A DNA stretch of 64,000 nucleotides from Edaphobacter bradus. GTDB taxonomy: Bacteria; Acidobacteriota; Terriglobia; Terriglobales; Acidobacteriaceae. Below the pieces are notes generated by a model. That model had not been told where the DNA came from. It did no database searches and was given only the letters and a program-made list of their open reading frames with translations. The stretch spans positions 124,001-188,000 of the forward strand of contig NZ_JAGSYF010000003.1 in NCBI RefSeq assembly GCF_025685645.1, read 5' to 3'. Position numbers and translations under genes: made by a program. Shown in pieces: positions 7,722-19,476 of this stretch (its first letter is position 1; each line of letters opens with the position of its first letter).

Positions 7722-8606
7722 TTAGAACCATTTCATCCGGCGAAGGATGAGGAGCAACGCGACGGTGGTGAGAACGGTCGCCAAGCCGACATACAGGGCT
7801 CCGTGCGGGGATTCTTCAAAGGGCAGGCCTTTGAGATTCATGCCATAGACGCTGGAGATGGCGAGCGCCGGAAGCGCAATGGTGCCGAGGACGGTGAGGA
7901 CCTTCATGACCTCGTTGGTGCGGTTGGCCACAGATGATAGATAGATGTCGAGCGTGTTGTTGAGCAGGTCGCGTTGCGTTTCGACCGAGTCGAGCAGGCG
8001 GGCGATGTGGTCGTACGTGTCGCGGATGTAGAGCTGATGCTCGGCGTCGATAATGGTGTTGGGGTCGCGCTGCAGGTGCAGGCCGGCATCGCGCGTGTTG
8101 ACGAGGACGCGGCGCAGATCGATGAGCTCGCGCTTGAGGGCGAAGACTTGCTGGAGGATGTCGGGCGAGGGATTGTCGACGACTTTGTCCTGGAGATCGT
8201 CGATGCGATCGTCGAAGTAGTCGATGGCGGGAAAGTACAGATCGACGACGGTGTCGAGGATGAGGTAGAGGAGATGCGCCGGGTGCTCCTCGTCGCCGCA
8301 GCGGCGCGCTCGCTCGAGCGCTTTGTCTGTCGTCGGACACGCCGGGTTGGCGATGGTAATGAGGAAGTCTTTGCCGGCGAAGACATCGATAGTGAAGAAG
8401 GTGGGCATCGACTCGGATGGCGCGTCGGGGTCGGGCTTGAGGTAGACAGGCTTGAAGACGGCGAATGCGTACTGCGAACCGGAGTCGACCTTGACGCTCT
8501 CGTCGGCGCAGCGCGCATCCTCGATGTGGAGAGGATGGAGATTGTACTGGCGGGCTAGCTCGTCGAGCTTGGGGTCGTTGGCGTCTTCGAGTTGGTACCA
8601 GGGCAT
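7722..8606 (-). CDS. corA: CorA-family divalent cation transporter
   Basis: Inner-membrane magnesium/cobalt channel of 294 residues. A long cytoplasmic helical domain (residues 1-230) is followed by two C-terminal membrane helices; the defining YGMN motif lies at the end of the first, followed by LKGLPFEESPHGA, and the protein ends RRMKWF. The MPEL motif of the best-studied CorA proteins is replaced, as in many CorA-like proteins, so ion preference is uncertain. Converges with the bestrophin gene. Confidence 0.9.
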   Translation of the reverse strand: MPWYQLEDANDPKLDELARQYNLHPLHIEDARCADESVKVDSGSQYAFAVFKPVYLKPDPDAPSESMPTFFTIDVFAGKDFLITIANPACPTTDKALERARRCGDEEHPAHLLYLILDTVVDLYFPAIDYFDDRIDDLQDKVVDNPSPDILQQVFALKRELIDLRRVLVNTRDAGLHLQRDPNTIIDAEHQLYIRDTYDHIARLLDSVETQRDLLNNTLDIYLSSVANRTNEVMKVLTVLGTIALPALAISSVYGMNLKGLPFEESPHGALYVGLATVLTTVALLLILRRMKWF

Positions 8607-8632
8607 GCCGGTGAGGTCTCCAATAGAAGCCG

Positions 8633-9292
8633 CTATAACTTGCCGATGCCATCATTTTCTAGTGGGAGCTGTGTTGAGTCATCATCCTCTTCCGCCCAGC
8701 GGAGACCGCAGTTGCCACAGTGCCAGGATTCGGAGCCGCGCGGTGCAGGCAGCGACAAAAGATAGAGTGAAATCAGAGCGGCCTTTCGCCCATAACGTTG
8801 CCACGCGATGTCAGTAGAGTTGCACCGCGGGCAGCGAGGTTGTTCGTAGCCTGGCTGGTCTGGGAGAGGAATGGAGTTGGGGATTGGCTGAGCGAGGACC
8901 GCTTCCGCCGCTTCGACGTCCGTAGCGGCGACCTGCAGACGAATGCCTCCAATGAGATTGGACATCTGCCAATCGAGTCGGACGAGATTCTCGTCCTTGA
9001 GGAAGCAGAAGATACCAATGGATTCGACGACAGCGCGAGCGACAACGGCTTCAGAGAGATCACGATAGCGGCGGAGCGTCACGAGATCACGGTACTTAGG
9101 CAGGTCGTCGATTGGAAGAGGTGGCTCAGTGAATTCAAGGCCGCGGCTGGCAAACTCCGTCACAAGAGCAGAGCGCGCCTCATCAATCAGCGAGTGCCAG
9201 TCGGTGGCAAGCTCGCGCAGCTCAGGCTCGGACATCGACTTGTAGAGATCGGCGAATGTCGGTTCAGGGCTGTGATGAAAGAAATTCGCCAT
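8633..9292 (-). CDS. DUF2007-like protein with C-terminal zinc ribbon
   Basis: A 219-residue protein of unknown role. Residues 1-60 form an acidic helical region (MSEPELRELATDW). Residues about 75-135 match the DUF2007/putative signal-transducing domain pattern (YRDLSEAVVARAVVESIGI, then a WQMSNLIGGIRLQV strand and DVEAAEAVL). The C-terminal part has CPRC and CGNC pairs that would form a zinc ribbon, separated by a short hydrophobic segment. It lies 26 bp upstream of corA on the same strand. Cytoplasmic location is assumed. Confidence 0.75.
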   Translation of the reverse strand: MANFFHHSPEPTFADLYKSMSEPELRELATDWHSLIDEARSALVTEFASRGLEFTEPPLPIDDLPKYRDLVTLRRYRDLSEAVVARAVVESIGIFCFLKDENLVRLDWQMSNLIGGIRLQVAATDVEAAEAVLAQPIPNSIPLPDQPGYEQPRCPRCNSTDIAWQRYGRKAALISLYLLSLPAPRGSESWHCGNCGLRWAEEDDDSTQLPLENDGIGKL

Positions 9293-9331
9293 GCGACGCG
9301 ATGATAGCAGAGGCTACAACCAGGCCTGCGA

Positions 9332-10108
9332 TCAGCACTCGTGGACGACGTGGCCCTGCCCTTTTTCAATATGGGTGATCTCGCCGTCGCGCATGTGGAG
9401 GATGCGGTCTGCGATCTGCGCGGCTTCGGGGTTGTGCGTGATCATCAACACGGTCTGGTTGAGCTCGCGGCTGGATCGGCGCAGCATATCGAGGACGACA
9501 TCGGAGTTCTTAGTGTCGAGGTTGCCGGTGGGTTCGTCGGCGAGGACGATGGCGGGGCGGGTGATAAGCGCGCGGGCGATGGCGACGCGCTGCTGCTCGC
9601 CGCCGGAGAGCTCGTTGGGGCGGTGATGGAGGCGTCCGTCGATTCCCAGTAACTCCGTGAGGTGATCGAGGAGGTTCCTGTCGAGTGGCTGCTTCTGCGA
9701 GGCTCCGATGTTGGCGATGTCGTGGGCGATCTCGATGTTTCCGAGAGCCGATAGCGTTGGGAGCAGATTGAAGCGCTGGAAGACGAAGCCGATCTTGGCG
9801 CGGCGCATGCGAGTGCGCTCAATATCGGAGAGACGGGCAAAGTCGACGTCGTCGATGAGCAGCGAGCCGCTGGAGGCATGTGTCAGTCCGCCCAGGACGT
9901 AAAACAATGTTGATTTGCCGGAGCCGGACGGCCCGACGATGGCGACGAACTCGCCCGGATCGACAGCGAAGCTGACCTTACGAAGCGCAAGTACTTCGAG
10001 CTTGCCGGAACGGTAGGTCTTGCCAAGGTCCTTGGCGAGGATAATCGGCTGCCGGGAGACAGGGGTTGCGGCAGTTGCGGTGGGTTGGGCGGAGATATCG
10101 GTTGACAT
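9332..10108 (-). CDS. LolD/MacB-type ABC transporter ATPase
   Basis: A 258-residue ATP-binding subunit with Walker A GPSGSGKST (about residue 60), Q-loop FQRFNLLPTLSALGNI, signature LSGGEQQRVAIARAL, Walker B IVLADEPTGNLD and the H-loop THNPEA. The FNLLPTLSALGN and GNLDT patterns place it with LolD/MacB/FtsE-type exporters that work with FtsX-like permeases and move lipoproteins or peptides rather than import nutrients. No permease gene is adjacent; the nearest FtsX-type permease is at 26924-28015. Divergent from the next gene, with 35 bp between starts. Confidence 0.92.
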   Translation of the reverse strand: MSTDISAQPTATAATPVSRQPIILAKDLGKTYRSGKLEVLALRKVSFAVDPGEFVAIVGPSGSGKSTLFYVLGGLTHASSGSLLIDDVDFARLSDIERTRMRRAKIGFVFQRFNLLPTLSALGNIEIAHDIANIGASQKQPLDRNLLDHLTELLGIDGRLHHRPNELSGGEQQRVAIARALITRPAIVLADEPTGNLDTKNSDVVLDMLRRSSRELNQTVLMITHNPEAAQIADRILHMRDGEITHIEKGQGHVVHEC

Positions 10109-10143
10109 GCGTTACCTTGAAGTTTATCGCGAATGAGGCGGGA

Positions 10144-10752
10144 ATGACCTTTCGGGAGCTTTTGCTGTTGGGATTGGTGGGCTGGACGGCCGTTGGGCAT
10201 CTGGGAGTGGCGTTGTCGTTCGCTATGCAACAGAGGGAGAAGGCGCTCCGCCATCTGGGCTGGATCGGCGGGGTATGGGCGGTCTACCTGGCGGCGCTTC
10301 TGGTGACTTCGCTGCTGCAGCCGCAGAAGACAGTTGCTATCGGGCAGCGGCAGTGCTTTGACGAGATGTGTTTTACCGTGACGGGCGCGGACGAGATGCC
10401 TGGCTATCTGATTCGCGATAGTTCGCGCCTGGTGCGGGTTAAAGTGAGCGTGACTAACCGCGGGCACCATACGGAGAGCGAGTCGATCCTTGAGGCGTAT
10501 CTCATTGACCGGCAGGGACGAAGGTGGAACGAGGTTCCTGGACTGACTGGAGTGAGATTGACCACACGGGTTCCTGCTGGAGGATCCGTCGTGAGCGAGC
10601 CTGTCTTCAAGGTCGCCGGCAGCGCGAGCGGGCTGGGACTGGTGTTTACGCATGGGTGGAAGCAGCCTGGTGTGCTTGTCCTTGGAGGAAGCGACAGTCT
10701 GCTTCACAAGCGCACAGTGGTGTGGCTCGGCGACAGGAGCGCTCAGAACTGA
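10144..10752 (+). CDS. Hypothetical membrane-anchored protein with an Ig-like C-terminal domain
   Basis: Unrecognised 202-residue protein. Two hydrophobic helices (about 5-25 and 40-60) precede a beta-rich region with alternating pattern LVRVKVSVTNRGHH and VPAGGSVVSEPVFKV, reminiscent of DUF4352-like beta-sandwich domains exposed outside the membrane. Start ATG 10144 is preferred over the longer ORF from 10066, which would overlap the divergent ABC gene. One Cys pair (CFDEMCF) could form a disulfide outside the membrane. Confidence 0.6.
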   Translation: MTFRELLLLGLVGWTAVGHLGVALSFAMQQREKALRHLGWIGGVWAVYLAALLVTSLLQPQKTVAIGQRQCFDEMCFTVTGADEMPGYLIRDSSRLVRVKVSVTNRGHHTESESILEAYLIDRQGRRWNEVPGLTGVRLTTRVPAGGSVVSEPVFKVAGSASGLGLVFTHGWKQPGVLVLGGSDSLLHKRTVVWLGDRSAQN

Positions 10753-11216
10753 TTACTCCGGCCGGTGCACTACGAGCGACTGTCTTTTTTTTCTCCTTTC
10801 CCTGCAAAAGGATGCAGCCACACTGTGGTGGCTAAGTCTAAGACAAGAGAATTCAATGACTACTGTTGGCAAAGAAATTGCACCAATCGGCTAGTGATCC
10901 TCGGCCCCCCCAATCTGCGTGCACGGACCTCGTGCAAAACGTAGAGAAGACAGCAAAGAGGGCACAGTAGGGCTCCACCAGCACAGTTCGGATAGACGAA
11001 GGTGACTGCCGGAACAGGTGGTCTTTCACGAACCACTTATTAACGCTTTATTCTCGTCGATCCGTGGTTGAAGCCCCGACCCCACAATTCGTAACGGCGC
11101 TCTAAGGGCCCGCGACCGTGCTGCGGAAAAGTGCGCCTCCAACTCGTCCTGCGCGACTCCCTTGAGCCGCGTAAACGGCCGCGTTCTGTCAAAAGCCACT
11201 TCCATGGAGAAGAGCA
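10753..11216. other. Long intergenic region upstream of the Fap-like operon
   Basis: No convincing ORF. It holds a small hairpin AGCCAC-actgtg-GTGGCT near 10816-10833 and AT-richer patches near 11035-11055 that may carry the operon promoter, but I could not fix -35/-10 boxes. The length suggests a regulated leader. Confidence 0.4.
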
Positions 11217-12536
11217 GTGAACAAACTAATCTGCACACTGACCACAGCCTTTGTTCTCGTTTCTGGCGTGGCGTTCAGCCAGAGCAAGCAGACAACCTCC
11301 AACGACAAGCAGGGCAAGCATACCCTGCAGGACAACCAGATGGACAAAGTTACCGCTGCGGGCGAAGAGAGCTCTGCGATTGCAGCGAATAACTCGACCG
11401 TAACGGAAACCAACACCGGAGCGGTAAGCCTCTCCGGGAGCGCGCTGATGGGAGCAAGCGGCGTCAACATCGTCAATTCGACCGACAGCCTGGTTGCAAA
11501 TGGGGTGAACGTCTATAGCGGGAGCCTGACGACGCAGGCCAATAACACCAGCGCGGATGTAGACCAGGCCAACGCCATCAGTCAGACCGCTGTAAGAGAG
11601 GCTACCCTCACCGACTACTCGCGTGGAACGAACAGCCAGCTGGACGCCACCAAGTCGTCGAGTGAGACGGAGACCAGCAGTTCTTCCAAGACCCTCAACG
11701 CTACGTTCAGTCACATGGCTACCCACAGCGAAAACAATACGGACAATTTCACGACCAGCAGCAGCTCTACGAACACAGAAAGCTCGACCAAGAATGCAAG
11801 CGACGTGAAGTCAGCCTCCGAGACGGAAAGCGCAATGGCGAGCAAGGCAAGCACCGGCAACGACACTTGGTCTTCTAACTCGACAAGCGCCACTGCCTCC
11901 AGCGCCACCGGCGGCAGTTCCGGATCGTCCGGTAGTTCGTCGCACACCAACAGCGCTGCGGGCGGCGGAGCCACGTCGGCAACTGCGGGGACTCAGACCA
12001 ACGCTCTGACCACTACCGGCACCGCGTCGGCAAGCAACTCCACCAGCTCCAAATCCTACACGGATGCGGACTCGTATAATGCCTCTCATCAGTCGTCTGA
12101 AACCGACAACTCGGCGTCGAACGTGAGCAGCTCGAGCACGAATTCAGAGAATTCGACGAAGAACTCTTCGACTACCCACAACGCGACTGAAACAGAGAGC
12201 TCCACCAGCAACACGTCTGCGAGTCTTGTGGCTACAGACTCGAAGACGCGCTCGGAAACCTCCAACGACAGCAGCCATGTCATTCACAACATAGAGGGCG
12301 CGGTGAGCTTCGAATCAGCCAGCGCGCAGAACATCGCGGTGGATGGATCGCACGTGACCGCGACCAATAGCTACTCCGTGACGCTGGCGGGTACAGCGGA
12401 GCAGAATGCGAACGCGCTGAACATCGTGAACGCAGCCGGCGGATTGGTTGCTGACGGCGTCAACGTTGCTCGCACGACGAACATGACTGCGACCCCAACA
12501 CTCACGCAGGTCAACAGTATCAGCCAGCACCACTAG
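11217..12536 (+). CDS. Secreted Fap-like amyloid subunit (large)
   Basis: A 439-residue exported protein starting at GTG 11217 after GGAGAAGAG. Residues 1-21 form a Sec signal peptide (ending VAFSQ). Next comes LQDNQMDKVTAAG (about 36-48), also found in the following gene. Two copies of a unit of about 50 residues follow, one near 65-115 (GVNIVNSTDSLVANGVNV, ending QANAISQ) and one at the C-terminus (ALNIVNAAGGLVADGVNV, ending QVNSISQ). They are separated by about 250 residues almost entirely Ser, Thr, Asn, Ala, Glu, itself with two similar blocks (STNTESSTKNAS; STNSENSTKNSS). Amyloidogenic repeats joined by a low-complexity linker match the design of Pseudomonas FapB/FapC. Function inferred from this and from the C39 peptidase and barrel downstream. 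No cysteines. Confidence 0.65.
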   Translation: MNKLICTLTTAFVLVSGVAFSQSKQTTSNDKQGKHTLQDNQMDKVTAAGEESSAIAANNSTVTETNTGAVSLSGSALMGASGVNIVNSTDSLVANGVNVYSGSLTTQANNTSADVDQANAISQTAVREATLTDYSRGTNSQLDATKSSSETETSSSSKTLNATFSHMATHSENNTDNFTTSSSSTNTESSTKNASDVKSASETESAMASKASTGNDTWSSNSTSATASSATGGSSGSSGSSSHTNSAAGGGATSATAGTQTNALTTTGTASASNSTSSKSYTDADSYNASHQSSETDNSASNVSSSSTNSENSTKNSSTTHNATETESSTSNTSASLVATDSKTRSETSNDSSHVIHNIEGAVSFESASAQNIAVDGSHVTATNSYSVTLAGTAEQNANALNIVNAAGGLVADGVNVARTTNMTATPTLTQVNSISQHH

Positions 12537-12619
12537 CCAGAGTGGCGCCGCGGGAGGGCAGTCACGTTGGCAGTCCTCCTGCGGTCGCAGCTTCTTCCAA
12601 AGCAATCAAGGAGAGCTTT

Positions 12620-13021
12620 ATGAGAAGAACTCTGGTGATCGCAGCAATGGCTCTGCTCACCACAATGGGCATGGCCCAAACAAAGACAAAACCAAAGCCG
12701 CTGAGCGATGCTGCGCTTGATAGGGTCACGGCGGCGGGAGTCACTGCCGGGTTGTCGAATGGAGCGATTCAGTTCCAGGGGGAGGTTCCGACGAAGAACG
12801 GTCTGGTCACTGGCGCGGGCACGCTCGCGATTCTGAACGGACCGGTCAACGGAATCACCACGGGGACTCTCTCACTCAACGGCAACTCGCAGCAGAACCT
12901 GACGTCACTGGTCAATATCAACGCAGTGAACTCAACGATCAGCGTGCTGCTGAACCTGAATGTAAACATCAACTCGTCTGTGGGTACGTTGACCCAAACG
13001 AACCTGAGCAACAAACACTGA
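12620..13021 (+). CDS. Secreted Fap-like amyloid subunit (small)
   Basis: A 133-residue exported protein with a signal peptide ending GMAQ (about residue 20), then LSDAALDRVTAAG, matching the motif after the signal peptide of the larger subunit. The C-terminal half (SQQNLTSLVNINAVNST, NLNVNINSS, TLTQTN) aligns with the repeat of the large subunit: QN, then NI-NA, then NV, then TLTQ-N. It therefore carries one repeat instead of two and could be the minor or nucleating subunit, as FapB is to FapC (inference). SD AAGGAGAG at 12608-12615. The gap to the peptidase gene is only 4 bp. Confidence 0.62.
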   Translation: MRRTLVIAAMALLTTMGMAQTKTKPKPLSDAALDRVTAAGVTAGLSNGAIQFQGEVPTKNGLVTGAGTLAILNGPVNGITTGTLSLNGNSQQNLTSLVNINAVNSTISVLLNLNVNINSSVGTLTQTNLSNKH

Positions 13022-13025
13022 TGTT

Positions 13026-13697
13026 ATGAACAGGCTTAAGCTAACAACCTGTCTAATGGTTCTTGCTCTCCTGCCCCCACTCGTCCACGCACAACTGCCG
13101 GGTGACGAGGAGGTGCAGGGGAGCAAGAGCGTTCGCAGCCTGAAAGAAATTCGGGGCGAGGATGTTGTGCGGCAGAAGTGGGACATGAGCTGCGGCGCGG
13201 CCGCGCTCAGTACGCTGCTCACCTACGACTTCAAGGACAAGACTCCCGAGACGGCGATTGTGGTGTGGATTCTGCATCGGGTCAATCCGGTCCGGGTACG
13301 GGAGCGGGGAGGATTCTCGCTTCTTGATCTTAAGCACTTCGCTCAGGCGCGCGGATACCACGCGGAAGGCTTCAGCGGAATGACGATCCAGGATCTCGCC
13401 TCAGAGAAGACCTCGGTGATTACACCGATCCGGCTGAAGGGCTTCGATCACTTCGTCGTCGTTCGAGGAATTCAGGACGGCCGAGTGATTATCGCCGATC
13501 CTGGGTTTGGAAATCTCACGATGAGAGTCGACCGGTTCCAACAACTCTGGAAGAACGGCATCGTGTTCGTCGTGCATCCGCCGGACGATCGCATGATTCA
13601 GGAGAAGAAGCCAAACGAAGCATCGCGGTTGCTTCCCGACGAGACCGTCATCTCGCGGAGTATCGGAGTCTCGATTCCAAGCAACCCACTCTATTAG
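13026..13697 (+). CDS. Secreted C39-family cysteine peptidase (FapD-like)
   Basis: A 223-residue protein with a signal peptide (residues 1-23, ending VHAQ) and a papain-like C39 fold: Gln50 and Cys56 in RQKWDMSCGAAALSTLL, His142 in GFDHFVVVRG and Asp158 in IIADPGFGN, i.e. oxyanion Gln plus a complete Cys-His-Asp triad. C39 domains usually cleave after small residues in leader peptides of transported substrates; free-standing periplasmic versions occur as FapD in Pseudomonas amyloid operons. The two upstream secreted proteins share a VTAAG motif that could be its substrate site (inference). Starts 4 bp after the small-subunit stop, so translation is probably coupled. Confidence 0.82.
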   Translation: MNRLKLTTCLMVLALLPPLVHAQLPGDEEVQGSKSVRSLKEIRGEDVVRQKWDMSCGAAALSTLLTYDFKDKTPETAIVVWILHRVNPVRVRERGGFSLLDLKHFAQARGYHAEGFSGMTIQDLASEKTSVITPIRLKGFDHFVVVRGIQDGRVIIADPGFGNLTMRVDRFQQLWKNGIVFVVHPPDDRMIQEKKPNEASRLLPDETVISRSIGVSIPSNPLY

Positions 13698-13715
13698 GAG
13701 GAAAGGCGGGCCGGG

Positions 13716-14987
13716 ATGCTGTCGCGAACTGTATTCAAGAGCCTTCTGGCGTTGCAGTTGACGGTTGTTGCCACGGCACAGACCACGACGATAGCAGCGA
13801 ATAACGCTGCGCCGCCTGGGCAGCCGCAGACAAGAGATATCGTCGACCTCAAGCTGCAGGATGCGTTGCGCGAGCGGGATGCCATCATCCGTAACCTTCT
13901 CGAGCGGGTTCAGGAGCTTGAGTGGAGGGTCAATGGAGGATTTACGACCAGGCCCGGGGAGCTGACCGCGGGCGGAGCTGCGGCTGAGAAGCTAAGTCAT
14001 GCGGTCTCGTCTACGGCCTACTCGACGGTGACAAACGCCGGTTACGACATTGAAGAACGACAGGCGAGCGAGGCGCTTGATCGCGCCCTGCTCGTCCGCG
14101 GCGGACTTTTGCTGCCGCAGGGAACGCTCGAGATCGACAACACGACGTCCTACTACACCGCCTCATCGGATCATCTGACCGTCAACGGATTCGCCCTTCT
14201 ACCCATTTTGGTCGTGGGCGATATCACGTCACAGCGCGTCCGCAAGGACATCCTTCTGCCTACCTTCACAGCACGCCTTGGCCTGCCGGCCAGACTCCAG
14301 GCCGAGGTGAACATTCCCTATGGCTACGAGATGAACCGTACCGTCGACGCGACTAACAAGCAGACCTCACAAAGCACCTTCGGCCTTGGCGATATTCAGT
14401 TCGCGGCCTCGCGCCAGCTCACCTTCGAGCACGGGCGCGTCCCCGATCTGTTGGCGAATCTCCGGTTCAAGACAACAACGGGCGTGGAGTCGTTCGACAT
14501 TCAGAGCGCCCAGACCTCACTCGGCTCGGGCTTCTACGCGTTGCAGGGCAACCTTACCGCGGCGAAGTCGAGCGACCCGGTCGTCTTCTTCGGGAACCTT
14601 TCTTATACGGAGAACCTGCCGGGGACTCACACGATTCCTAACCCTGACGCCACAAGTTCCTCCCCAACGATCCTTGGGCACTTCCGCCCGGGCGACGCAA
14701 TCGGATTCCAGCTGGGCTCTATCCTGTCGCTGAACCCGGAGACCTCGATGACGGTTGGCTGGGACCAGCGATTCACGCGATCCACAGTTCTGAATGGCAC
14801 CTCTATCCCGGCTTCGTATCTGGTGGAAGGGTCGCTGCGTCTGGGAATGACCTATCTTTATGCGCCGGGAAAGTTGGTGGACCTGAGCTTTGGCGTGGGG
14901 CTCACGCCAGATACACCGAATCTTCAGTTTTCCGTCGGGCTTCCGTTCCGGCTGTCTCTCTGGAAGCCGCCGGCCCGGACGTACTGA
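13716..14987 (+). CDS. Outer-membrane beta-barrel secretion pore (FapF-like)
   Basis: A 423-residue protein with an N-terminal signal peptide (ending VATAQ), a helical heptad region at about 45-75 (LKLQDALRERDAIIRNLLERV, continuing to ELEWRV) that should form a coiled coil, a polar linker, and then from about residue 125 alternating amphipathic beta strands to the C-terminus. The barrel part resembles PF13557-type (phenol-degradation meta-pathway) outer-membrane proteins. An N-terminal coiled coil plus barrel is the architecture of FapF, the trimeric amyloid exporter of Pseudomonas. AGGAGGAAAG sits upstream of ATG 13716. Role as exporter of the two repeat proteins is inferred from the operon. 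Confidence 0.7.
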   Translation: MLSRTVFKSLLALQLTVVATAQTTTIAANNAAPPGQPQTRDIVDLKLQDALRERDAIIRNLLERVQELEWRVNGGFTTRPGELTAGGAAAEKLSHAVSSTAYSTVTNAGYDIEERQASEALDRALLVRGGLLLPQGTLEIDNTTSYYTASSDHLTVNGFALLPILVVGDITSQRVRKDILLPTFTARLGLPARLQAEVNIPYGYEMNRTVDATNKQTSQSTFGLGDIQFAASRQLTFEHGRVPDLLANLRFKTTTGVESFDIQSAQTSLGSGFYALQGNLTAAKSSDPVVFFGNLSYTENLPGTHTIPNPDATSSSPTILGHFRPGDAIGFQLGSILSLNPETSMTVGWDQRFTRSTVLNGTSIPASYLVEGSLRLGMTYLYAPGKLVDLSFGVGLTPDTPNLQFSVGLPFRLSLWKPPARTY

Positions 14988-15083
14988 CGTTGATGACAAG
15001 TGATGCCGCTGGAAACAAGGCGGCACAAACGCAAAAGACCATAGGCGATGGAGCTCCGCTGAGCATCTCCATCGCCTGATTTT

Positions 15084-15449
15084 TCAGGCGAGCGTGCAGC
15101 CCGTCATCAGCAGTGACTGCAGGGTCATGTGGTCGAGAAAGCTGACCTCCAGGCGGATGGAGATCACCTGGCCAAGTTCGGCTGCGGATGCGAGATTCCT
15201 GCGGCAACTCCAGAGATCGGTGAGGGCAAGGTGCCCTGAGCGCGTCAGCTCGAGGCCCGAGGAGACGATCGCGGCGTAGACGTCGACGATGGAGCGCAGT
15301 TGGATCTCAATGCGGAACTCGATGGCCGTGGGGGACAAGGTTCTTCGGCCGAGCATCCATGCGCCACACTCGGCAAAGGCTGTGTTGAGGCGCGGCAACA
15401 GAGCGTCGCGGTCTGCGTAACTGAAGCTCTGAATGTCGAGCGATTGCAT
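15084..15449 (-). CDS. Hypothetical protein
   Basis: Unrecognised 121-residue cytoplasmic protein without signal peptide or membrane helix. The sequence alternates helices and strands (FRIEIQLRSIVDVYAAIV; QVISIRLEVSFLDHM), suggesting a small alpha/beta fold. It lies alone between the Fap-like operon and acpS, convergent with the former and divergent from the latter. Codon use and composition look native. Confidence 0.6.
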   Translation of the reverse strand: MQSLDIQSFSYADRDALLPRLNTAFAECGAWMLGRRTLSPTAIEFRIEIQLRSIVDVYAAIVSSGLELTRSGHLALTDLWSCRRNLASAAELGQVISIRLEVSFLDHMTLQSLLMTGCTLA

Positions 15450-15573
15450 GGATTCCGTCCGGATGCCTCGTTAGCTCTCTGTTGTTTAGTCTGTTCATCG
15501 GTGGGAGAGGCTTGTCGCATGACAGCCGGCGCGGTACGGTGGTCATGTGACGGAGGAGAGTAACCGTCGGTGA

Positions 15574-15972
15574 ATGGAGATGCGTGCAGCGATGGTGCTT
15601 GGTTTGGGGTCAGACCTGATTGAGATCAACCGGATTGCGGAGAGCATGGAGCGGTTCGGCGACCGGTTTTTGCATCGCGTCTTCACCGAAGAGGAGATCG
15701 CATACTGCCAGCGCAAGAAGAAACACGCCGCTGAGAGCTTCGCCGCGCGCTTTGCCGCCAAGGAGGCCGGAGCCAAGGCTCTGGGGACTGGAATCAGCAG
15801 GGGCATCGGCTGGCGCGAGATCGAAGTGAGGCGCGAGTCCGGCGAGCGGCCGACCCTGCACCTGAGCGGGCGCGCCGCCGCGCGCGCCGCGGCCATGGGA
15901 GTCCGTCATATTCAGCTCACGCTCACGCACGGCCGTGATGTCGCCATGGCGGTGGTCCTGGTGGAGGATTAG
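15574..15972 (+). CDS. acpS: Holo-[acyl-carrier-protein] synthase
   Basis: Transfers 4'-phosphopantetheine from CoA to acyl carrier protein, activating it for fatty-acid synthesis. Family motifs: GLGSDLIEINRI near the N-terminus (Mg-binding Asp), FTEEEIAYC, and ARFAAKEAGAKALG (catalytic Glu/Lys), ending LTLTHGRDVAMAVV. At 132 residues it is a normal AcpS trimer subunit. Start codons at 15574, 15580 and 15592 are all possible; GGAGGAG at 15552-15558 does not discriminate well. Confidence 0.93.
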   Translation: MEMRAAMVLGLGSDLIEINRIAESMERFGDRFLHRVFTEEEIAYCQRKKKHAAESFAARFAAKEAGAKALGTGISRGIGWREIEVRRESGERPTLHLSGRAAARAAAMGVRHIQLTLTHGRDVAMAVVLVED

Positions 15973-16217
15973 TTCGCCTTACCGTCTGACGTCAGGCTGG
16001 GGGCAGAAATCTGAACCCTGTGGCGATTTTTCTGCATCTATCGAAGACGAAAGCACTTTTCGGATGTGGTCTGCGGCGGCATCGTCCAAGAGATCGAAGC
16101 AGGGTGATGTATTCTCTGAATGACCGGACCCCCCTGCGTGCTGTGTCACAGGGACACCCGGCAGACGATAACGCCGTGCCGATCAAGTCCCACGGGAAAT
16201 GACTTCGAAGGAGAGCT

Positions 16218-17303
16218 ATGCCCAGCCAGCAGGAGGTCAGGTGGTCGCAGTTGAAGGTGGGTCTGATCGTACTGGCAGCGACCATCTTTCTGGTGACGCT
16301 GCTGTTTCTGATCACGAGCGCCTCCGGCATCGGCATCCTCTCCCACAAGCTGACGATCACAACCTACTTTGAGAACTCGGCCGGCCTGAAGGAAGGCGCG
16401 CCCGTGAACCTGCACGGCGTCACCATCGGCACGGTGAAGAGCGTCACCGTGGTGAGCGCCCCGGATCGCAAGCTGACACCCGTCAAGGTGGTCATGAAGA
16501 TCAATGAGAAGAATGTTGCGGAGCTGAAGAAGGACTCCAAAGCTTCTTTGACTACCATCGGCGTGCTCGGCGATACCGTGGTGGACATTAGCAGCCGATT
16601 CGCCGTTGGGCCTCAGTTGCAGGATGGCGACGAGTTGGCGACGCTTGAGACCCCGAGCCTGACCGACGTCGTCAAGGCGAGCCAGGGAACGATTGAGAAC
16701 CTCAACGTCATCCTCGCCAAGATGAACGTCATTGTGGACAACCTCCAGTCGGGGAAGGGCTCGATTGGCCAGCTGATCAATAGCCCCGACCTCTACAACA
16801 AGGCGAACAGCACGGTTGACGAGTTGCACAAGCTTACCGTGAACCTCAACAGCGGCAAGGGCTCCGTGGGCAAGCTGGTAAACGACGACGAACTCTATAA
16901 TCGCCTCAATGGCACGGCGGCAAAGCTTGAGAGCATCACAAATGCGCTCGAGAGCGGCAAGGGCACAGCCGGCAAACTGCTCAAGGACGAGACGCTCTAT
17001 AACAATCTCAACTCTTCACTGGCCCACGCGAACTCGATTCTTGCCGAGGCAGACGCGGGCAAGGGCGGGCTGGGCTTGCTGTTGAAGGACCCGAAGACGA
17101 GGGAGCAGTTGAGTAACACGATCACTCAGATGGATACGCTGGTCTCGGGCCTCAATCAAGGCCGCGGAACGCTCGGCAAACTAACGACGGACGATACAGC
17201 CTATACGAACGTGAACCGTCTGCTCACAGAGAGCACGAACCTGGTCACGGCCATCCGCCGGGATCCGAAGAAGTACCTGACGATCCACATGAAGATCTTC
17301 TAG
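16218..17303 (+). CDS. MlaD/MCE-family lipid-transport protein
   Basis: A 361-residue inner-membrane-anchored periplasmic protein. One N-terminal membrane helix (about 14-36) is followed by an MCE domain (about 45-125: ITTYFENSAGLKEGAPVNLHG and VTIGTVKSV; TIGVLGDTVVDIS). The rest is a helical region with five imperfect copies of SGKGSxGxL, four of them followed by a DxxLYN- or TREQL-like segment about 45 residues apart, at about 180-335. MCE proteins form hexameric rings moving phospholipids across the periplasm, normally with MlaE/MlaF; neither partner is adjacent. SD GGAGAG precedes ATG. Confidence 0.9.
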   Translation: MPSQQEVRWSQLKVGLIVLAATIFLVTLLFLITSASGIGILSHKLTITTYFENSAGLKEGAPVNLHGVTIGTVKSVTVVSAPDRKLTPVKVVMKINEKNVAELKKDSKASLTTIGVLGDTVVDISSRFAVGPQLQDGDELATLETPSLTDVVKASQGTIENLNVILAKMNVIVDNLQSGKGSIGQLINSPDLYNKANSTVDELHKLTVNLNSGKGSVGKLVNDDELYNRLNGTAAKLESITNALESGKGTAGKLLKDETLYNNLNSSLAHANSILAEADAGKGGLGLLLKDPKTREQLSNTITQMDTLVSGLNQGRGTLGKLTTDDTAYTNVNRLLTESTNLVTAIRRDPKKYLTIHMKIF

Positions 17304-17418
17304 GCCGGGGCCTTCCGGGCGTCTATCTGCAGAACCTTCTGGCATTTCCTTGAATTGCGGTGTATTGTGCGGTCACAAAGTTTTTGCAGTTTCTGTCACT
17401 CTACTTTAAGGAAACACA

Positions 17419-19476
17419 ATGGGCTTCAAGTACGCCGCTTCCCTGCTGGCGCTATCCAGCGCTATGTGTCTGGGGCAGTCCCATACCTCCACCGAGATGG
17501 CGCCAGGACCTGCTTCCGAACCGGCGAAACCGATCAGCTTTGATCTCTCTGCCATCGACACGAAGGCCGACCCGTGCACGGATTTTTACCAGTACGCCTG
17601 CGGCAACTGGAAGAAGAACAACCCGATTCCTGCGGACCAGGTGCGATGGGGACGGTTCAATCAACTGGCGGAGCGCAATTCCTGGCTGCTCTACCAGGAC
17701 CTGAAGGCTGCGGCAGACGCCCCGAAGACCCCGCTCCAGAAGAAGTACGGCGACTACTTCGCCGCATGTATGAATGTTGGGTTGGCCAACCGCTTGGGAG
17801 CCAGGCCGATCGAGCCCATGCTCAAGGCAATCGACTCGTGGGATGACAAGAAGAAGCTGGCCAGCCTGATGAAGATAACCGAGGACAAGCTCGGCTTTTT
17901 CTTCAGCTTCTCCTCGACGCAGGACCAGAAGGACTCAAGCCAACAGATCGGAGAGGTCGATCAGGCGGGGCTCGGGCTGCCCGACCGCGACTATTACCTG
18001 AACCAAGATGAGCGTTCGAAGACGCTGCGTGCCCAATATGTCGAACACATCACGAAGATGTTCGCGCTGCTGGGTGACACTCCCGAACGGGCCGCGAAAG
18101 AAGCCGCAGATGTTTTGAAGATTGAGACGGCACTGGCACAGGGTTCCATGTCACGCGTGGACCGGCGCTCCCCAGCGAATGTGTACCACATCATGACCAT
18201 CGACCAACTCCAGGCCCTGACCCCCGAGTTCGACTGGAAGCTCTACCTGGCCGCCAAGAGAGAGGGCGACCTGAAGTCCCTGAATGTTGCGACTCCGGAG
18301 TTCTTCAAAACGTTCAACCAACAGCTTGATTCGGCAGATATGACCGCGCTCAAGAGCTACCTGCGCTGGCAGACGGTGCACCGCTATGCGACTTCGCTCA
18401 GCGACCCGTTTGTCGAAGAGAACTTCCGCTTCTTCGGCGCGATTCTTACGGGGCAGAAGGAGCAGACGCCGCGCTGGAGACGCTGCACAGCGCAGACCGA
18501 CCGCGCGCTCGGCGAAGCTGTAGGACAGGACTGGGTAGCCAGAAACTTCCCGCCGGCCGCGAAGGAGAATATGGAGAAGCTCGTTGCCGCGCTGGAGAAG
18601 GCGCTCAACGAAGACATCAGGCAACTGGACTGGATGAGCGACACAACGAAGGCCGCAGCGGTGGACAAGCTGGCTGCGTTCCGGCAGAAGATCGGCTATC
18701 CGGAGAAGTGGCGCGACTATTCGATGCTGAAGATCGAGCGTGAAGACCCTGTGGGCAACGTGGACCGCGTCGCGGCCTTCAATGATCGGCGCAACCTTTC
18801 GAAGATTGGCCAACCGGTCGATGAGAGGGAGTGGGGCATGACGCCTCCGACGGTGAATGCCTACTACAGCCAGGGCAAGAACGACATCAATTTTCCTGCC
18901 GGCATCCTTCAGCCTCCCTTCTATGACTTCAAGATTGACCCTGCGGTGAACTTTGGCGGGATTGGGGTGGTAATCGGCCACGAGATGACCCACGGCTTCG
19001 ACGATCAGGGAAGCCTGTACGATGCCAAGGGCAACGTGCGCAGCTGGTGGACTCCTGAAGACAAGAAGAAGTTCGATGAGCGCACGGACTGCGAGGTGAA
19101 GGAGTACAGCGGCTTCGAGGTTGCTCCGGGGCAGAACCTTAACGGCAGGCTGACGCTTGGCGAGAACACCGCTGACAATGGCGGCCTGCATGTCGCCTAT
19201 GCTGCGTTGATGTCGGCCCTTGCCGAGCAGGGCTTTGATTCTTCGGCAAAGATCGACGGATACACACCGGCGCAGCGGTTTTTCCTCGCATTCGGCCAGG
19301 TGTGGTGTGAAAACCAGACGGAGGAGTCTGCACGGCTGCGGGCCAAGACCGATCCGCACTCGAGCGGCCAGTGGCGCACCAACGGAAGCGTGCAGAACTT
19401 TGCTGAGTTCGGTAAGGCTTTTGGCTGCAAAGTTGACCAGCCGATGACGCCTGTGAATGCCTGCCACGTCTGGTAG
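17419..19476 (+). CDS. M13-family zinc metallopeptidase (neprilysin/PepO-like)
   Basis: Exported oligopeptidase of 685 residues. It has an N-terminal signal peptide (about 1-17), the M13 N-terminal domain opening DPCTDFYQYACGNWKKNNPI, and the catalytic domain with zinc motif HEMTH (His521, Glu522, His525) and GENTADNGG (Glu582 third ligand), ending PVNACHVW with the usual C-terminal Cys. All catalytic residues are present. AAGGAAAC precedes ATG 17419. A strong terminator follows, so it is probably monocistronic. Confidence 0.96.
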   Translation: MGFKYAASLLALSSAMCLGQSHTSTEMAPGPASEPAKPISFDLSAIDTKADPCTDFYQYACGNWKKNNPIPADQVRWGRFNQLAERNSWLLYQDLKAAADAPKTPLQKKYGDYFAACMNVGLANRLGARPIEPMLKAIDSWDDKKKLASLMKITEDKLGFFFSFSSTQDQKDSSQQIGEVDQAGLGLPDRDYYLNQDERSKTLRAQYVEHITKMFALLGDTPERAAKEAADVLKIETALAQGSMSRVDRRSPANVYHIMTIDQLQALTPEFDWKLYLAAKREGDLKSLNVATPEFFKTFNQQLDSADMTALKSYLRWQTVHRYATSLSDPFVEENFRFFGAILTGQKEQTPRWRRCTAQTDRALGEAVGQDWVARNFPPAAKENMEKLVAALEKALNEDIRQLDWMSDTTKAAAVDKLAAFRQKIGYPEKWRDYSMLKIEREDPVGNVDRVAAFNDRRNLSKIGQPVDEREWGMTPPTVNAYYSQGKNDINFPAGILQPPFYDFKIDPAVNFGGIGVVIGHEMTHGFDDQGSLYDAKGNVRSWWTPEDKKKFDERTDCEVKEYSGFEVAPGQNLNGRLTLGENTADNGGLHVAYAALMSALAEQGFDSSAKIDGYTPAQRFFLAFGQVWCENQTEESARLRAKTDPHSSGQWRTNGSVQNFAEFGKAFGCKVDQPMTPVNACHVW

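Follow-up and report, generated by a model that had tools for sequence, protein, structure and literature searches.

The closest described relatives of the locus treated here are the functional-amyloid (Fap) operons of Pseudomonas (fapABCDEF), compact operons in which secreted repeat proteins are encoded together with a C39 peptidase, FapD, and a barrel exporter, FapF. The locus itself is a four-gene operon, S1-S2-FapD-FapF, in a 64,000-nucleotide stretch of the Edaphobacter bradus genome (positions 124,001 to 188,000 of contig NZ_JAGSYF010000003.1, hereafter the window). The minimal Fap repeat has been published (PMC3792158), and a recent survey that relies on the repeats to detect Fap describes the system as evolutionarily fixed (PMC12822426; papers are cited by PubMed Central number, for what excerpts of them state). 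An earlier note on the window, made from the DNA alone, gave Fap as described mainly from proteobacteria. That picture is out of date: colocalised fapD and fapF have been noted in five additional phyla (Rouse et al., PMC6173800) and Fap operons have been published from other phyla (PMC12822426), so the peptidase-exporter pair outside Proteobacteria is not new. What is new here is the cargo family, its clade, and a leader motif on the cargo proteins.

Two other systems resemble parts of this operon. The Fil system (FilB/FilC) likewise combines a C39 peptidase with a COG4313-like barrel. The double-glycine leader/C39 ATP-binding cassette exporters (peptidase-containing transporters, PCAT, and those of bacteriocins) have a peptidase of the same family and the same leader rule: hydrophobic residues at -12, -7 and -4 are recognized by a C39 peptidase (PMC10885120), and a 12-residue formula for class II bacteriocins uses these positions (PMC7494827). 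Unlike those exporters, the window has its peptidase as a separate secreted protein, its leader after a Sec signal peptide, and an outer-membrane barrel as the neighbour.

FapD/FapF-type machinery with different cargo

The last two genes of the operon are, by profile matching, homologues of fapD and fapF. The peptidase matched the NCBIfam model C39_FapD (NF058616) at 5.6e-29 (101 bits; curated cut-off 330) and Pfam C39 at 8.1e-17, while its best single model was NCBIfam FilB (7.3e-36, below the curated cut-off). The intact Gln/Cys/His/Asp set read by the earlier note was borne out, since Q50, C56, H142 and D158 are invariant in ten aligned sequences that include the window's own and two from another acidobacterial family. 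The barrel matched NCBIfam FapF (NF058560) over residues 32-411 at 5.6e-27 (94.6 bits; curated cut-off 700) and, by phmmer, the FapF crystal chains 5o65, 5o67 and 5o68 (best 9.6e-22, residues 138-411); matches were also obtained to NCBIfam FilC (4.8e-18, 65.6 bits, far below the curated cut-off) and to Pfam Phenol_MetA_deg. The barrel of the earlier note thus stands, whereas the coiled coil placed at its N-terminus was seen by eye only, as a heptad in residues 47-72 (L47 L51 R54 I58 L61 V65 L68 V72, seven of eight a/d positions hydrophobic); a stricter scripted test over 28 or 35 residues returned no segment.

The FilB score and the Phenol_MetA_deg match speak for an Acinetobacter-type Fil system, a putative pilus system, or for an uptake porin next to an unrelated C39 peptidase. 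Either is very unlikely, given that the barrel scores higher as FapF than as FilC, that four Fil-type loci stand apart (100/100) from the window-type clade in the FapD tree described below, and that fapD, fapF and S2 always occur together in the phylum sample. Membership of Fil was rejected on the tree.

The two upstream genes encode secreted proteins with a common repeat, as the earlier note had it: S1 carries two copies and S2 one divergent copy, instead of the three of Pseudomonas Fap. In profile comparisons the two S1 repeats matched each other at 99% (E 8e-18), and the S2 repeat matched S1 repeat 2 at 82% (E 1e-5) and repeat 1 at just 25%. Invariant residues are N84, G96, N98, Q117, N119 and Q123 in S1 repeat 1, and N99, N112, Q126 and N128 in the S2 repeat (alignment of 24 sequences, 18 of them acidobacterial, the window included, and six from other groups). 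The S1 linker contains 67 Ser, 43 Thr, 25 Ala and 21 Asn among its 222 residues (131-352). S1 is Cys-free after residue 30, and S1 length ranges from 207 to 703 amino acids across 19 aligned rows. Judged from these comparisons, S1 and S2 look like a single family with its own repeat.

The earlier note took the gene content to be that of a fap operon. For FapD and FapF this holds; the equation of S1 and S2 with FapB and FapC failed, as no model, repeat or profile match was obtained. Neither protein matched the NCBIfam Fap subunit models at E<=1. The minimal Fap repeat (X15GX4NX3GX6NX7) is absent from S1 and S2 of the window and present two or three times in each of nine true FapB/FapC proteins; one match each was found in three of the 19 S1-type rows. 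Comparison of S1 or S2 repeats with FapB/FapC profiles reached at most 3%. On these tests S1 and S2 are not recognisable as FapB/FapC, canonical Fap membership was rejected, and the locus is accordingly described as FapD/FapF-type export with a different cargo. The FapC model found nothing in the window's own genome, with control genomes equally silent although the model did find FapC in a protein scan. The lack of FapE in the earlier note agrees with the absence of a FapE model match in the whole genome, where the control genomes were again silent.

It could still be that the locus is an ordinary Fap amyloid operon whose FapB and FapC have diverged past recognition. This view is in keeping with the shared D-F pair, two secreted proteins that bear repeats, a linker that is long and variable, and Asn/Gln in the repeats, as well as with the stretch NVYSGSLTTQAN of S1 repeat 1, which by eye shows the Fap-repeat spacing N-X3-G-X6-N; full-length S1, signal peptide included, also matched the FapC profile at 14% (E 0.002). 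Such an origin is distinctly unlikely. Besides the repeat counts and profile comparisons just given and the lack of a FapE match, both cargo proteins of the window carry a leader, none being seen on FapB/FapC, and the window's FapD belongs to a clade apart from that of Fap (99/96 and 100/100, respectively).

A leader motif on both cargo proteins

The most informative part of the locus, absent from the earlier note, is a 12-residue motif shortly after the Sec signal peptide of both S1 and S2. It resembles a double-glycine leader, with hydrophobic residues at -12, -7 and -4 and A[AGS] at the predicted cut. All 27 collected S1-type proteins follow this rule (1.7 expected after shuffling), as do all 25 collected S2-type proteins (2.5 expected). 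The -2/-1 residues of these 52 leaders are AG in 29, AA in 20 and AS in three, and A38 of the S2 leader is invariant in the 24-sequence alignment. No description of the leader was found in the open-licence PubMed Central literature, a search that does not cover subscription journals.

The collected sets had been gathered using a leader pattern, and the count was redone on relatives found by their mature parts alone, using profiles built from those sets. With some genome regions fetched twice (at least L060/L082, L062/L079 and L064/L086, L numbers designating loci), the leader was present in 32 of 32 S2 relatives and, by script, in 36 of 39 S1 relatives found via repeat 1. A 37th, L087, was missed because the search stretch had been cut too early and its leader lay outside; the exceptions are a decayed copy (L069) and one truncated at a contig end (L089). 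The recount bears out the count from the collected sets.

FapD most likely trims the S1 and S2 leaders before FapF exports the cargo. Another view would make the motif an uncleaved export or docking signal for FapF, or a chaperone site for FapD; some C39-like domains purely hold substrate, and Rouse et al. considered that the FapE N-terminus may be a removed FapF-targeting sequence (both PMC5557850). An uncleaved signal is unlikely, because the C39 spacing fits in 52 of 52 collected proteins and the catalytic residues of FapD are invariant in the ten-sequence alignment; in Pseudomonas, a Cys-to-Ala FapD blocks secretion, that of FapC requiring the catalytic Cys (PMC5557850).

Distribution and phylogeny of the operon

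The S2 profile was found in nine of 297 Acidobacteriota genomes, the same nine that have strong window-type fapD and fapF matches, which argues that the operon is not a chance arrangement. Eight of these are among 15 sampled genomes of the window's genus and one belongs to another genus of the same family. The nearest named FapD relatives are from Edaphobacter and Granulicella, with several named strains among the matches, in agreement with the acidobacterial host proposed in the earlier note. Among 18 named acidobacterial loci, the window's flanking genes were found in 11 and none of them in the stretch examined of the other seven, so that the operon is not tied to a single position. In two further genomes of the window's genus it appears to have been lost in place, because decayed pieces sit between the flanking genes of the intact operon: fapF fragments in G036 (L068 6806-7306), and broken fapF pieces with a piece of S1 in G061 (L069 6087-7866).

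Scanning genomes with the FapD alignment yielded 59 named loci, of which 54 have a FapF match (one weak, L128). The S1-S2-D-F set was also found in six non-acidobacterial loci: a Proteobacteria metagenome-assembled genome (MAG; L091), Marinobacter iranensis (L092), Ectothiorhodospira (L094), a Pseudomonadales MAG (L095), and L093 and L119, two Deltaproteobacteria MAGs that the tree tool labelled Myxococcota. An additional S1-type gene is present in some of the six. A FapD tree was built from 73 rows (midpoint-rooted for drawing only; L089, with the same score as L090, and the short L131 were omitted); in it a clade (99/96) unites the 24 window-type proteins with a single Crenothrix row on a long branch. 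The six Fap rows (100/100) and the four Fil-type rows (100/100), so labelled in this analysis from the fetched loci, form separate clades. By this tree the window-type FapD clade spans Acidobacteriota, Pseudomonadota and Myxococcota and is apart from both Fap and Fil, as the earlier note's divergent or independent branch would have it. Compared with Pseudomonas Fap, the window type occurs in Acidobacteriaceae, some Gammaproteobacteria and the two deltaproteobacterial MAGs, and a survey that finds Fap via its repeats would miss this clade.

M. iranensis carries an RGG-type fapD-fapF locus (L109) in addition to its window-type operon, and three FapF-like places in all. Short contigs of Crenothrix and Methylobacter (L096 462-2461 and L131 1539-1850) carry FapD-like genes accompanied by small secreted proteins that bear leaders (LSSNQMDAVTAG, LTTAQLDGVSAG and LSNTQMDTVTAG), and gave no FapF match.

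Leader-like motifs at other fapD loci and in Pseudomonas

With signal peptides called by a heuristic of our own and open reading frames (ORFs) filtered by codon-position GC, a regular expression for the motif matched within 3.5 kb at 63 of 74 fapD loci. At the non-acidobacterial loci the matches are concentrated near fapD: of the signal-peptide ORFs, 71 of 116 within 600 bp carried the motif (6.9 expected after shuffling), as did 11 of 63 at 600-3500 bp (3.9 expected) and 5 of 35 beyond 3500 bp (2.8 expected). At the acidobacterial loci the figures are 26 of 28 within 600 bp (2.1 expected) and 3 of 33 further out (1.3 expected). The matches include some that look like chance, among them the L101 row, the first row of L102, L107, the third row of L111, and the first rows of L127 and L170. 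In the other loci, a matrix trained only on acidobacterial leaders gave 8 bits or more for 19 of the 179 ORFs lying within 3.5 kb, where 0.7 would be expected from shuffled sequences, and for none of the 35 lying further out. No fewer than four of the 19 look fortuitous.

Many of the non-acidobacterial leaders are of RGG, GR or GK types, such as LSDPELSEYRGG in Marinobacter. The RGG/GR-leader loci (Marinobacter, Brevundimonas, Azohydromonas and others) resemble the window in having neighbouring FapD and FapF and small proteins with a Sec signal peptide and a leader. They differ in that their fapF is mostly on the opposite strand, RGG or GR stands at the cut, the cargo is Asn/Asp-rich with no leader seen on it, and the mature proteins do not match the S2 profile.

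Profiles were built for families chosen from the fetched loci (15 E-like, seven FapE, 19 A-like, six FapC and four FapB sequences). With signal peptide and leader included, S2 matched A-like at 74%, A-like matched E-like at 96% and FapE at 80%, and E-like matched FapE at 93%. With both removed, the values were 0.4% for S2/A-like, 1% for E-like/FapE and 3.6% for A-like/FapE. Because the full profiles contain the signal peptide, part of the cross-family similarity is due to that peptide alone. S2 was rejected as a homologue of FapE or of the A-like proteins on mature-part profiles (0.2% and 0.4%).

In Pseudomonas, the target of FapD was called unclear in 2017, with FapE or FapF proposed and the canonical C39 sequence stated to be absent from the Fap proteins (PMC5557850). 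According to a 2025 review, the FapE N-terminus and the periplasmic region of FapF are the presumed sites of FapD processing (PMC12822426). FapE as a FapD target is therefore already proposed, and a defined leader is the new addition. The leader-like motif is present on FapE in all six fetched Fap loci (L168-L173); in one Pseudomonas-type genus the FapE model matched 21 of 25 genomes, and the motif occurs in all 23 FapE places from these 21. It is narrowly the best-conserved 12-column stretch of FapE (mean 0.913, against 0.899 for the next distinct stretch). FapE is also the one Fap protein from which N-terminal peptides (first ~70 residues) were missing, which was read as complete N-terminal processing (PMC5557850); the leader ends near residue 40, compared with the ~70-residue stretch without peptides. 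Similar motifs, LSDSDFAGVTSG and LSDGDFASVASG, were seen on FapA at two loci.

These data incline us to the view that FapD-FapF loci belong to a single general secretion pathway that includes Fap as a branch, is defined by a bipartite N-terminal signal (a Sec signal peptide and, after it, a C39 leader) and carries interchangeable cargo. The Acidobacteriota-Pseudomonadota-Myxococcota clade would then export a fibre family unrelated to FapC, and the FapE leader would identify the FapD substrate in Pseudomonas.

A model for two-step secretion

For the window, it is probable that the operon encodes a FapD/FapF-type two-step secretion system with its own cargo. In this model S1 and S2 would cross to the periplasm via Sec, shedding the signal peptide. 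In the periplasm the C39 peptidase FapD would bind the second N-terminal signal, the double-glycine-type leader, and cleave it at A[AGS]; trimmed, unfolded S1 and S2 would exit through the FapF trimer. Outside the cell the Asn/Gln-containing repeats may polymerise at the surface, leaving the long Ser/Thr linker of S1 exposed, and S2 may serve to initiate or to cap this assembly. The leader itself may prevent premature assembly of S1 and S2 or their premature entry into FapF. Observed here are the gene content, the homology of the machinery, the linkage, the conservation of the leader and the shared repeat; from these we infer cleavage, export, assembly and a possible amyloid nature.

Several points weigh against this model. 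The strict published GG formula is followed by none of the 52 collected S1/S2 proteins, whose cut is A[AGS] and not the canonical GG; nor do S1 and S2 have GG, GA or GS, the pairs of the C39-substrate criterion, at the cut. In the RGG/GR-type leaders, -4 is often non-hydrophobic. Eleven of the 74 fapD loci, including all four Fil-type loci, lack a regular-expression match. Three of these (L085, L089 and L090) have an S2 leader that the heuristic overlooked, L103 and L126 have a leader-like stretch by eye and L104 a weaker one (MTSDELAQVRGE); L128 and the Fil-type L179-L182 gave no match, with one possible leader seen by eye in L180. The mature parts of A-like and E-like proteins still match at 72%, a real C-terminal similarity. 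S1 and S2 profiles match at 96.6% with leaders and at 24.5% after leader removal, so that their kinship rests on repeat 2. The motif was not seen on FapB or FapC of the fetched Fap loci, and a leader is therefore not required for FapF export there. FapA-D were reported as unprocessed, with peptides along the whole of FapA (PMC5557850), which counts against a cleaved leader on that protein.

The AlphaFold models belong with these points. S2, modelled with a short helix at residues 30-38 of the leader, has a mean predicted local distance difference test score of 51; S1, modelled with four strands at each repeat, has one of 41.5. Since both models are of low confidence, the stacked beta repeats foreseen in the earlier note and amyloid are left without support from them. 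The machinery might act as proposed on a product that is not amyloid, such as a secreted adhesin-like or sheath protein, a reading that overlaps the two-step secretion model. The low-confidence strands and the make-up of S1, mainly Ser/Thr-rich linker with only two repeats, favour it; the invariant Asn/Gln positions of the internal repeats and the kinship of the exporter to an amyloid exporter do not. A non-amyloid product is a serious possibility, though on balance not the expected one.

Layout of the operon and its surroundings

ORF inspection placed the four co-oriented genes reported by the earlier note in a tight plus-strand operon at window 11217-14987, with intergenic gaps of 83, 4 and 18 bp in gene order (Table 1). 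S1 starts with GTG, with GGAG 7 nt upstream; S2 likely starts at ATG 12620 rather than at the upstream GTG of the raw ORF.

Table 1. Features of the S1-S2-FapD-FapF operon (window coordinates)
Feature	Position	Strand	Description and basis
S1	11217..12536	+	large exported repeat protein, 439 aa; ORF, aligned with 18 homologues
S1 domain order			Sec signal peptide, leader, repeat 1, Ser/Thr/Ala/Asn-rich linker, repeat 2
S1 leader LQDNQMDKVTAA	11325..11360	+	residues 37-48; predicted C39 cut after A48
S1 repeat 1	11412..11585	+	residues 66-123; profile comparison
S1 repeat 2	12363..12527	+	residues 383-437; profile comparison
S2	12620..13021	+	small exported protein, 133 aa; 24-sequence alignment
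S2 leader LSDAALDRVTAA	12701..12736	+	residues 28-39; predicted C39 cut after A39
S2 repeat	12860..13018	+	residues ~81-133; profile match to S1 repeat 2
FapD-like secreted C39 cysteine peptidase	13026..13697	+	223 aa; NCBIfam, Pfam C39
FapF-like outer-membrane exporter	13716..14987	+	423 aa; NCBIfam FapF, FapF crystal chains
FapF-like predicted coiled coil	13854..13931	+	residues 47-72; by-eye heptad reading
FapF-like transmembrane barrel region	14127..14948	+	residues 138-411; alignment with FapF crystal construct

A search for sigma-70 promoters on the plus strand of 10700-15300 found none, and a regulatory RNA search of 10600-15200 gave nothing beyond three sub-threshold matches to microRNA families. 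Sigma-54-type activator-like genes were seen by eye near fapD-fapF of other clades (L066 3436-4761, L169 8705-9997, L173 1446-2435 and L174 4617-6077), and none among the listed ORFs of window 8000-19000. Upstream of the operon, window 10066-10752 encodes a small membrane protein whose match to DUF4352 is weak and sub-threshold; a relative of this protein adjoins the operon at 11 of the 18 named acidobacterial loci. The window's genome also contains a second secreted C39-like peptidase (L070 7311-7965, G000:C2), between small secreted and tetratricopeptide repeat (TPR)-like proteins. This set, which we take to resemble the PA2778 type, is apparently unrelated to the operon.

Significance

If the leader reading is true, FapD would gain a defined recognition sequence, which was said to be lacking in PMC5557850. 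The leader would also offer a simple means to find the cargo of FapF-type exporters across bacteria, and S1 and S2 would provide a fibre candidate in the soil acidobacteria Edaphobacter and Granulicella.

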